Under the pieces are notes generated by a model. That model did not search any database. It saw only the letters and a program-made list of their open reading frames with translations, and was not told the DNA's origin. Source: Oscillospiraceae bacterium (lineage in GTDB: Bacteria; Bacillota; Clostridia; Oscillospirales; Oscillospiraceae). From it: a stretch of DNA of 55,486 nt. The stretch spans positions 1-55,486 of the forward strand of contig JAFYHU010000057.1 of assembly GCA_017538965.1 (NCBI GenBank). The letters are read 5' to 3'. Below are positions 20,224 to 22,500 of this stretch, piece by piece. How positions within the stretch are numbered: position 1 is the first letter of the stretch; each line of letters starts with the position of its first letter. Both the position numbers and the translations under genes were made by a program.

Positions 20224-22500
20224 TCAGGTCTGGAAGTTCTCGGTGTACGAGGCGATCAGCGCCTTGAGTTTCTTCAGCTCGTCGTCATCCAGCTTCTTTC
20301 CGCTGTTGATGCGCGCGTGCAGTTCCGGCCAGCGGCCGTTCACCCAGGGGATCAGGCCCTTTTCATAAGACGGGATCTGTTTCAGCTCGATGCCGTCGGC
20401 AAAGCCTTCATTGACCGCATAGATGGAGATGACCTGGTCGGCGGCCTCCATCGGGGCGTACTGTCCCTGCTTGAGCAGTTCGGTCATCCGGTCGCCACGG
20501 TGCAGAGTCGCGCGGGTGGCTTTGTCCAGATCCGAGCCGAACTGTGAAAACGCCGCCAGCTCGCGGTACTGGGCGAGATCCATCCTCAGACGTCCGGCCA
20601 CCTGCTTCATCGCGCCCAGCTGGGCCGAACCGCCGACACGCGAAACCGAAAGACCCACGTTGACGGCCGGGCGGACGCCGGAATTGAACAGATCGGTCTC
20701 GAGGAAGATCTGTCCGTCGGTAATGGAGATGACATTCGTCGGGATATAGGCTGAGATATCGCCGGCCTGCGTCTCGATGATCGGCAGAGCCGTCATGCTG
20801 CCGCCGCCGTACTCCTCGCCGAGGCGCGCGGCGCGCTCCAGCAGACGGGAGTGCAGATAGAACACGTCGCCGGGGTAGGCTTCGCGTCCGGGCGGACGAT
20901 GCAGCAGCAGCGAAATCTCGCGGTAGGCCACCGCCTGCTTGGAAAGATCGTCGTAAACGATCAGAACATCCTTGCCCTTGTGCATGAAATACTCGCCCAT
21001 GGCCGCGCCTGCATACGGCGCGATGTACAGCATCGGCGCGGATTCGGATGCGCTGGCGCAGACGACGATGGTATAGTCCATCGCGTCGTGCTCACGCAGC
21101 TTCTGCACGCAGCCCGCCACGGTCGATTCCTTCTGTCCGATGGCGACATAGATGCAGATCATGTCCTTACCCTTCTGGTTGATGATGGCATCCAGGGCAA
21201 TGGCGGTCTTGCCGGTCTGACGGTCGCCGATGATCAGCTCGCGCTGACCGCGGCCGATCGGGATCAGGGCGTCGATGGCCTTGATGCCGGTCTGCATCGG
21301 CACGGAAACCGGCCGGCGCGCGATGACGCCGGGCGCCGGGCTTTCGATCGGCCTGGTTTCCGTCGTGTGAATTTCGCCGGCGCCGTCAATGGGGTTGCCG
21401 AGCGAATCGACCACGCGGCCGATCAGGTCTTCTCCGACCGGGACTTCGATGATGCGGCCGCTGCGGCGCACCTTGTCGCCCTCCTGCAGGTCGGTATAGT
21501 CGCCCAGCAGGACAACGCCGATGTTGTCCTTCTCAAGGTCCATGACCATGCCGCGCAGGTCGCGGTTGAACTCAATCAGCTCGCCGGCCATGGCATCCGA
21601 GACGCCGGTGATGCGGCAGATACCGTCCGAAACGCTCGAGACGGTTCCGGTCTGGTAGATATCCGCGCCGTTGGAGACCTTCCGGAGCTCCTCCTTCAGC
21701 GCCTGTACCATCTCTTCGTCATCGTGCTCGAGAATCGACACCTCTTCCGAAGCCCGCTCGAGCATGGATTTCAGGGTCCTGTCGTAAACCGTGTCGCCGA
21801 CGCGGAGATAGGTACCGCCGATCAGACTCTCGTCCGTAATCTCGGTGACGGAAATCTCCTCTTCCTTCGGCGTCTCTCCGGCATCACGCAGCGCCCGCAG
21901 AACGGCATTGCGGATGCGCGAGACCTGTTCGGGCTGCAGCGGCTCGGCGCTGCGGAGCTCGACAGGCACGTCGCCCTTCCTTTCCCGATAGGCGTTCAGC
22001 TCGCCCCGGGTAATGACAAGTTCCTTCTCCGCCCGCTGAATCAGCGTCTCGGTCAGGTTCTCCCTGGCCTTCTGATACTGCGGCTGCCCCATCAGGGACG
22101 CCGCCCGGGCCGTAATATCCATGAGGGCTGTCCGGGTCAGGGCTCTGCGCGCCGTCCGGGTCTGATACTGGATTTCCTTTTCCGTATCGGCTTTCAGGCT
22201 GTCCGCCGTATGCCGGTCAGCCTCTTCCGCCCGCTGCTTTTCCGCTCCCGCGGTTGTTTCGGCATTGCGAAGAATCTCGGCGCACTCTTCCGTGCCCCGG
22301 GTGTTCGCCGCTTCGATCCTTTCACGAATCGTCCTGGCGTTGACGACTGCCTGATCCGCCGCATCCAGGCTGTCCTGTATTTTCTGCCTGTTGCCGCCGA
22401 ACAGTTTCGGAATCAGCTTTCTGCCGATAAAATACAGACCCGCTGCAAGGATGGCAAAGTTAATCAGTCCGTATATAATATGATAGTGAAAAGCTCCCAT
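20224..22500 (-). CDS. atpF-atpH-atpA: Fused ATP synthase subunit: b-type, delta C-terminal domain and alpha
   Basis: One uninterrupted frame of 758 residues. Residues 1-35 are a membrane helix ([20 protein letters not shown]) and 36-160 a charged coiled coil, as in b subunits. Residues 161-255 match only the C-terminal part of delta ([19 protein letters not shown]); the six-helix N-terminal domain that binds alpha is missing. Residues 264-758 are a complete alpha subunit with P-loop GDRQTGKT at 425-432. No other delta gene exists in the operon, and a normal b gene lies just upstream. Met264 could start a free alpha but has no good ribosome site. AGGAGGG precedes the start at 22500. Confidence 0.95.

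Follow-up and report, generated by a model that had tools for sequence, protein, structure and literature searches.

In the available part of Ueno et al. (2025; PMC12229609), from which all statements cited here to that source are taken, ATP synthases to date have a single a subunit per complex, and the N-terminal domain of the delta subunit contacts two of the three alpha subunits and limits the number of peripheral stalks to one. The same work removed this domain from the delta subunit of PS3 FoF1 and fused the remainder to alpha; cryo-EM of the resulting enzyme showed as many as three stalks and a subunits, and SDS-PAGE gave an average of about two (PMC12229609). Visible stalks were always bound to a subunits, the H+/ATP ratio was 5.8 versus 3.0, and the equilibrium proton-motive force was halved (PMC12229609). 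Ueno et al. further cite natural delta–alpha fusions (Acidaminococcus fermentans, UniProt G4Q3K6, A0A1I2C5T3), propose that natural multi-stalk enzymes exist, with proof awaited, and wanted a form whose stalks stay on F1 (PMC12229609). Here we analyze contig JAFYHU010000057.1 of an Oscillospiraceae bacterium (GenBank assembly GCA_017538965.1), a stretch of 55,486 nucleotides that we call the window, in which one gene encodes an ATP synthase b subunit, the C-terminal domain of delta, and alpha as a single polypeptide. Judged from its sequence, this gene probably belongs to an F-type ATP synthase that bears its own stator arm on every alpha, has as many as three stalks and a subunits, and makes ATP from a weak gradient.

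The fusion gene lies at 20224..22500 on the minus strand and forms a single ATG-to-stop frame of 758 residues, with an AGGAGGG upstream whose end is 11 nt from the ATG. Pfam places ATP-synt_B at residues 8-125, OSCP at residues 164-252, and three ATP-synt_ab domains from residue 284 onward, and the NCBIfam model atpA (TIGR00962) matches residues 261-756 (789 bits; cut-off 484). The OSCP match covers only positions 89-170 of the 172 in the profile, i.e., the C-terminal half of delta. Along the chain, all on the minus strand, there follow a fused b part of roughly residues 1-160 with one membrane helix and a stalk helix (22021..22500; the end at residue 160 is our choice, taken from the OSCP start at 164), the C-terminal domain of delta alone at residues 161-252 (21745..22020), a junction at residues 253-284 that holds the end of the delta C-domain and the alpha N-terminal helix without an added linker (21649..21744), and the alpha part, residues 262-758 plus the stop (20224..21717). 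A preliminary description of the window had read the gene as one such 758-residue frame in an operon with no separate delta gene and no delta N-terminal domain, and the domain matches bear out this reading. The assembled sequence also shows neither a stop nor a frameshift at residues 255-264, the stretch that the same description had singled out for a check.

Separate delta genes and delta N-domains were sought with PF00213 across the genome to which the window belongs (G000; 94% complete, about 6% missing), and the one match lies inside the fusion. PF00430 gave two matches, the free b and the fused b. Four proteins match ATP-synt_ab: two are the F-type alpha and beta of the window, and two belong to a V/A-type ATPase on contig C69 as its A and B subunits. 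No second F-type alpha was found among them.

Of 214 matched PDB chains, 60 were listed, and among these the engineered fusion (9jc1_I) is the only one that spans both the delta-C and alpha parts of the window protein. Like the engineered PS3 enzyme, the window system has no delta N-domain, carries the delta C-domain on the alpha N-terminus, and has an epsilon without a C-terminal domain (PMC12229609). Unlike that man-made enzyme, in which the b2 dimer is separate, it sets b ahead of delta-C on alpha and keeps a second b that is separate and shortened. Natural fusions of alpha to a delta without its N-domain likewise join a truncated delta to alpha in operons without a separate delta, whereas their b is separate and of ordinary length in the delta-C–alpha loci read here. 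A third kind of fusion, the b–delta protein of Gordonia and some Mycobacterium, retains the delta N-domain. This protein, found in Gordonia and some Mycobacterium, resembles the window system in that b is fused to delta and accompanied by a second, separate b (PMC5709465, in its available part); its alpha is separate, which gives one arm per enzyme, whereas the window protein has no delta N-domain and holds alpha in the same chain.

N-type ATPase operons also lack a separate delta gene, but the order of genes in the window differs from the N-type order in the available part of PMC5709465. The alternate-F1F0 models TIGR03324 and TIGR03321 stay below their cut-offs (653 of 750.5 bits for alpha, 56.9 of 224.7 bits for the free b), and by these scores alpha and the free b do not belong to the alternate N-type families. 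No description of a b–delta–alpha fusion was found in the literature searched, from which subscription journals and preprints were mostly absent. The preliminary description had named no characterized enzyme of this build, which holds for the triple form but overlooks the delta–alpha part, since the engineered chain and natural delta–alpha fusions were known. Thus, fusions of alpha to a delta without its N-domain were already built and proposed in 2025, and what is new is a natural triple fusion that ties b to every alpha and is shared by many uncultured relatives.

To follow the fusion among relatives, as the preliminary description had suggested, named genome contigs were scanned with an alignment of twelve b–delta-C parts, and the best 80 of at least 310 related stretches were read. 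The b part, the delta-C part, and the beginning of alpha share one frame in 79 of these 80 loci, the triple fusion is whole and unbroken in 76, and a separate b gene stands alongside in 79. Among the exceptions, the frame of L117 breaks off between b and delta-C, contig ends truncate L127 and L143, and L127 and L146 carry breaks farther along, within alpha. Because the 80 loci were picked by likeness to fused proteins, these counts speak to the reality of the fusion and not to its prevalence. All 80 are titled as metagenome-assembled genomes (MAGs) or as uncultured; the animals whose gut sites appear in 36 of the titles are goat, sheep, roe deer, water deer, and water buffalo, and three titles start with Lapin.

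Ratios of nonsynonymous to synonymous substitution rates (dN/dS) were calculated from 28 disjoint pairs of fusions. The fused b part has a median of 0.235, with all 28 pairs below 1, the delta-C part a median of 0.254 (27 of 27 usable pairs below 1), and alpha a median of 0.071 (28 usable pairs, all below 1). The b and delta-C parts of the fusion are therefore under purifying selection. Catalytic and ion-path residues are retained as well: Gly430 and Lys431 of the alpha Walker A motif are invariant in 70 of 70 aligned fusions, all 111 of 111 fusion-type loci retain the Glu, Gln, and Tyr columns of the c subunit, and 110 of 110 retain the a-subunit Arg (some genomes count twice among fusion-type loci, since they occur both among the G-numbered genomes and in the named collection). 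That the gene has decayed, or that its frame is an artefact of assembly or of a frameshift, is hardly credible against this record, even though the broken frames of L117, L127, and L146 are of the sort that such an origin would leave behind. The whole frame in 76 of 80 loci, the retained alpha Walker A motif, c-Glu, and a-Arg, and dN/dS below 1 in every usable pair for b, delta-C, and alpha all oppose it, and a pseudogene or artefact was rejected on the dN/dS values and the intact loci.

The triple fusion is common in its genus and rare across the class. An F-type alpha was found in 40 of 60 genomes of the same genus and lies in an open frame of at least 690 aa in 33 of them (G005 and G044 reach contig ends); two of the 40 (G037, G054) have a delta-C–alpha fusion with a separate b, and in five (G002, G015, G020, G025, G059) the gene is broken or cut by a contig end. 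OSCP gave 40 matches in 39 of the 60 genomes, the smallest containing frame being 250 aa (G002, cut by a contig end), and no separate delta of ordinary size was seen among these matches. Beyond the genus, the triple fusion occurs in two other families of the same order (G078, G079). An even, class-wide sample of 391 genomes gave a full-length, stop-free match to the b–delta-C profile only in the window's own genome, among matches listed best-first; G113 from this sample has a full-length match with a stop between b and delta-C. One related genome, G006, holds two ATP synthase operons (L044, L045) with a triple fusion in each, and the a gene of L044 is split into two frames.

The F1 part of an ATP synthase contains three alpha subunits. 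If the chain is uncut, three alpha per F1 bring three b–delta-C arms into each enzyme, and the preliminary description was right to see a puzzle in a chain that joins a subunit needed three times to one needed once (delta) and one needed twice (b). Of the three ways out that it offered, three stators, cleavage, or an internal start for free alpha, we favor the first, and no internal start position is shared by the 77 fusions surveyed below. In known enzymes the delta N-domain sits on the threefold axis and admits one stalk only, so its loss makes several stalks possible. The proposal in the preliminary description that a covalent fusion may replace the contact between the delta N-domain and alpha fits the role of this domain stated in PMC12229609.

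We hypothesize that every arm takes one of the short, separate b subunits as its partner in a peripheral stalk of two helices, which would give up to three stalks per enzyme. Each stalk could hold an a subunit against the c-ring, as the engineered PS3 enzyme does, and the greater number of ions per ATP would then allow ATP synthesis from a weak ion gradient, perhaps one upheld by an Rnf- or Nqr-type pump, with speed probably the price of the higher ion cost. The window's own genome carries one NqrB/RnfD/RnfE family protein, which may be part of an ion pump. We put forward more tentatively, as a possibility that falls short of even chances, the full picture of a natural enzyme whose three heterodimeric stalks are covalently tethered and whose single c-ring is served by up to three a subunits; its ions per ATP would be a multiple of one third of the c-ring size, and it would serve a group of uncultured gut bacteria as a low-gradient motor. 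The reading in the preliminary description is thus partly supported and is here sharpened to an enzyme with three arms.

The junction between delta-C and alpha bears directly on whether the chain stays whole. Of 85 distinct fusions, 77 were counted and 8 dropped, the motif search having failed on the latter. The distance from the DTVYD motif of delta to the GxV motif in the first strand of alpha is 49 residues in the window; the fusions fall into two groups, with distances of 47-50 and of 52-54 residues. The delta tail and alpha head of 12 separate-gene operons sum to 49-56 residues. Since the junction is as long as the two separate ends together, delta and alpha are joined at their natural ends with no added linker. 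Over the 32 codons of the junction the median dN/dS is 0.33, and 20 of the 22 usable pairs stay below 1.

Starts within the junction were assessed by ribosome-site energy. In-frame ATG, GTG, and TTG codons with a site of -6 kcal/mol or better make up 36 of 153 in the junction (23.5%) and 512 of 2211 in the background inside alpha (23.2%). At the fusion's own start the median energy is -9.9, and 51 of 77 reach -6 or better. Met264 in the window, the sole in-frame ATG at the junction (21709..21711, minus strand), has a site of -2.2 kcal/mol, in agreement with the preliminary description that it lacks a good one, and its position is not shared across fusions; a GTG at residue 254 scores -4.7. No start position is common to the 77 fusions. 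With no shared start, and with sites no better than background, initiation of free alpha within the junction is not supported, and an internal translation start was rejected as a shared feature. Six loci with a nearly full delta fused to alpha (described below) also have no clear shared strong start, a GTG at -21 scoring about -6 in five of the six.

We consider it unlikely that the chain is cut after synthesis or that alpha is initiated internally, so that each F1 would keep one b–delta-C arm and an ordinary single stalk. Such an outcome would match the single a subunit per complex of all ATP synthases to date (PMC12229609), and 23 of the 77 loci do have some in-frame junction start with a fair ribosome site, at no common position. 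The background rate of such sites, the weak site of Met264, the conserved junction length, and the dN/dS of the junction all speak against such an outcome; moreover, one arm without a delta N-domain would leave two alpha subunits with no stator contact.

A whole chain with three arms could still seat an a subunit on one arm only, the other two serving to steady the head, and H+/ATP would then be ordinary. This explanation shares its three arms with the multi-a enzyme that we favor, so the two are not exclusive, and we regard it as rather doubtful. Ordinary operons share this gene order and likewise hold one a gene and one c gene, and the engineered enzyme averaged two stalks, not three, but the stalks of that enzyme were always bound to a subunits and its H+/ATP was nearly doubled (PMC12229609).

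Several observations currently weigh against an enzyme with three arms and three a subunits. First, the operon encodes a and the free b once each, which leaves the numbers of both subunits to expression. Second, two of the 22 usable junction pairs have dN/dS above 1 over these 32 codons, and the scattered junction starts in 23 of 77 loci belong here as well. Third, the six delta–alpha fusions mentioned above keep most of the delta N-domain, and thus fusion to alpha, on its own, neither requires loss of this domain nor proves three stalks. Fourth, although a delta N-domain was found in 0 of the 80 loci, the search used a single reference that also missed the domain in those six loci and in L036 and is therefore weak; the PF00213 search of the window's own genome is stronger. 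Finally, the class-wide sample, with the frame in one genome only, indicates that the triple fusion is no general solution.

On the minus strand the genes for a, c, and b are followed by the fusion gene and then by those for gamma, beta, and epsilon, and the F-type gene set (alpha, beta, gamma, epsilon, a, b, and c) is complete in this one operon, with delta represented by its C-terminal half alone, in fused form. The separate b subunit (22543..22968, minus strand; ATP-synt_B 1.6e-17) has 141 aa and no C-terminal helix, and after its KP motif it is about 20 residues shorter than the b of other operons. By an alignment-based count, the free b of fusion-type operons extends a median of 112 residues beyond this motif (n=87, range 64-120), compared with 132 in operons that mostly have a separate full delta (n=18), 130.5 in delta-C–alpha operons (n=10), and 130 in full delta–alpha operons (n=6). 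Separate b subunits of ordinary operons measure 159-186 aa, and the fused b part, at about 160 residues, comes close to this length. In known enzymes the C-terminal tail of b contacts delta. With the tail of the free b gone, the fused b would have to carry this contact.

The N-terminal helix of alpha is also less conserved in fused forms. The ratio of head to core identity in alpha is 0.36 and 0.33 in the two groups of triple fusions, 0.30 in delta-C–alpha fusions (three rows of which were skipped by the motif search), and 0.57 where delta is separate, as would be expected if the helix no longer binds a delta N-domain. The epsilon subunit of the window is short (17634..17900, minus strand; 88 aa, with ATP-synt_DE_N over residues 5-84) and consists of the beta-sandwich domain without the C-terminal helices. 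Across 72 fusion-type loci with a whole matched frame, the median epsilon length is 89.5 aa (range 83-139), compared with 132 aa in the single complete separate-delta case and 135-139 aa (one of 200) in delta-C–alpha operons.

Sodium-coupled enzymes have Ser or Thr after the c-subunit Glu and share the c-subunit Gln. The c subunit of the window (23004..23234, minus strand; ATP-synt_C) has 76 aa with Glu59 and Gln26, and in 107 of 111 fusion-type loci Ala-Leu follows the Glu. This leans toward protons as the coupling ion, while the retained Gln is a feature of sodium enzymes.

Relatives of the window organism show several other arrangements of delta and alpha. A separate full delta is present in, e.g., L050, L089-L094, L096, L097, and L101-L105. 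Two of these loci (L096, L097) come from two other genera of the same family as the window organism and have separate delta and alpha genes; relatives of this kind had been named in the preliminary description as a challenge to the fusion, and they indicate that it is not universal without refuting it. In L037 (5008-5226) and L038 (2811-3035), delta is reduced to its C-terminal domain as a gene of its own before alpha, encoding 72 and 74 aa. Delta-C–alpha fusions of 571-613 aa, with no separate delta, occur in L031-L035, L084, L085, L098-L100, and L188, and their b is a separate gene of ordinary length (in L100 a contig end truncates it). A delta with most of its N-domain is fused to alpha in a protein of 679 aa, next to a separate b, in all six loci read from one family, f42 (L189 2656-4695, L190 2826-4865, L191 2774-4813, L193 2643-4682, L194 2782-4821, and L195 2809-4848); two of these fusions were scanned and match OSCP profile positions 35-172. 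Delta and alpha are separate in two other genera of f42 (L196, L197). The subunit stoichiometry of the 679-aa type poses a puzzle as great as that of the triple fusion.

One of the delta-C–alpha loci suggests how the triple form could arise. In L188 (2894-5182), the stop of b lies five codons ahead of the delta-C–alpha start and in the same frame, so that the loss of one stop would suffice for a triple fusion. Quick trees were built with the window and 31 loci chosen from the 112 labeled as triple fusions, broken or cut fusions being excluded. The sampled triple fusions form one clade in both the alpha tree (32 of 59 rows, SH-aLRT 100) and the beta tree (28 of 41 rows, SH-aLRT 99). Delta-C–alpha rows fall in at least two places of the alpha tree, where the truncated forms as a whole are not one clade; a single common origin of truncated delta forms was not rejected (p 0.354).

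The ion-to-ATP ratio is usually read from the size of the c-ring, and the engineering of Ueno et al. showed that it grows with the number of a subunits as well (PMC12229609). In the triple fusion, a form that occurs in nature, the stalk cannot come away from the head. With delta-C alone, delta-C–alpha, and near-full delta–alpha, it makes up a graded natural set in which the rule that the delta N-domain restricts an enzyme to one stalk can be tested directly.

The other genes of the operon, all on the minus strand, encode an a subunit of 226 aa with Arg168 (23277..23957; ATP-synt_A 2.7e-44), gamma (19319..20212; ATP-synt 7.2e-82), and beta (17914..19299; TIGR01039, 810 bits). Elsewhere in the same genome, the V/A-type ATPase operon (L095; G000 contig C69, 2500-13000) comprises I, K, E, C, F, A, B, and D subunits by Pfam and could act as an ATP-driven pump. 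Between the ATP synthase operon and a glutamine synthetase III gene, window positions 24193-24502 hold a 142-nt unit in two head-to-tail copies (96% alike) followed by 26 nt of a third. Further on, at 27490-29691, lies a gene for a protein with two FMN-binding stretches, an FAD-binding domain, and a start that we read as resembling a signal peptide; it is possibly a surface flavin reductase, and a pyridine-nucleotide oxidoreductase gene adjoins it at 29760-30662.
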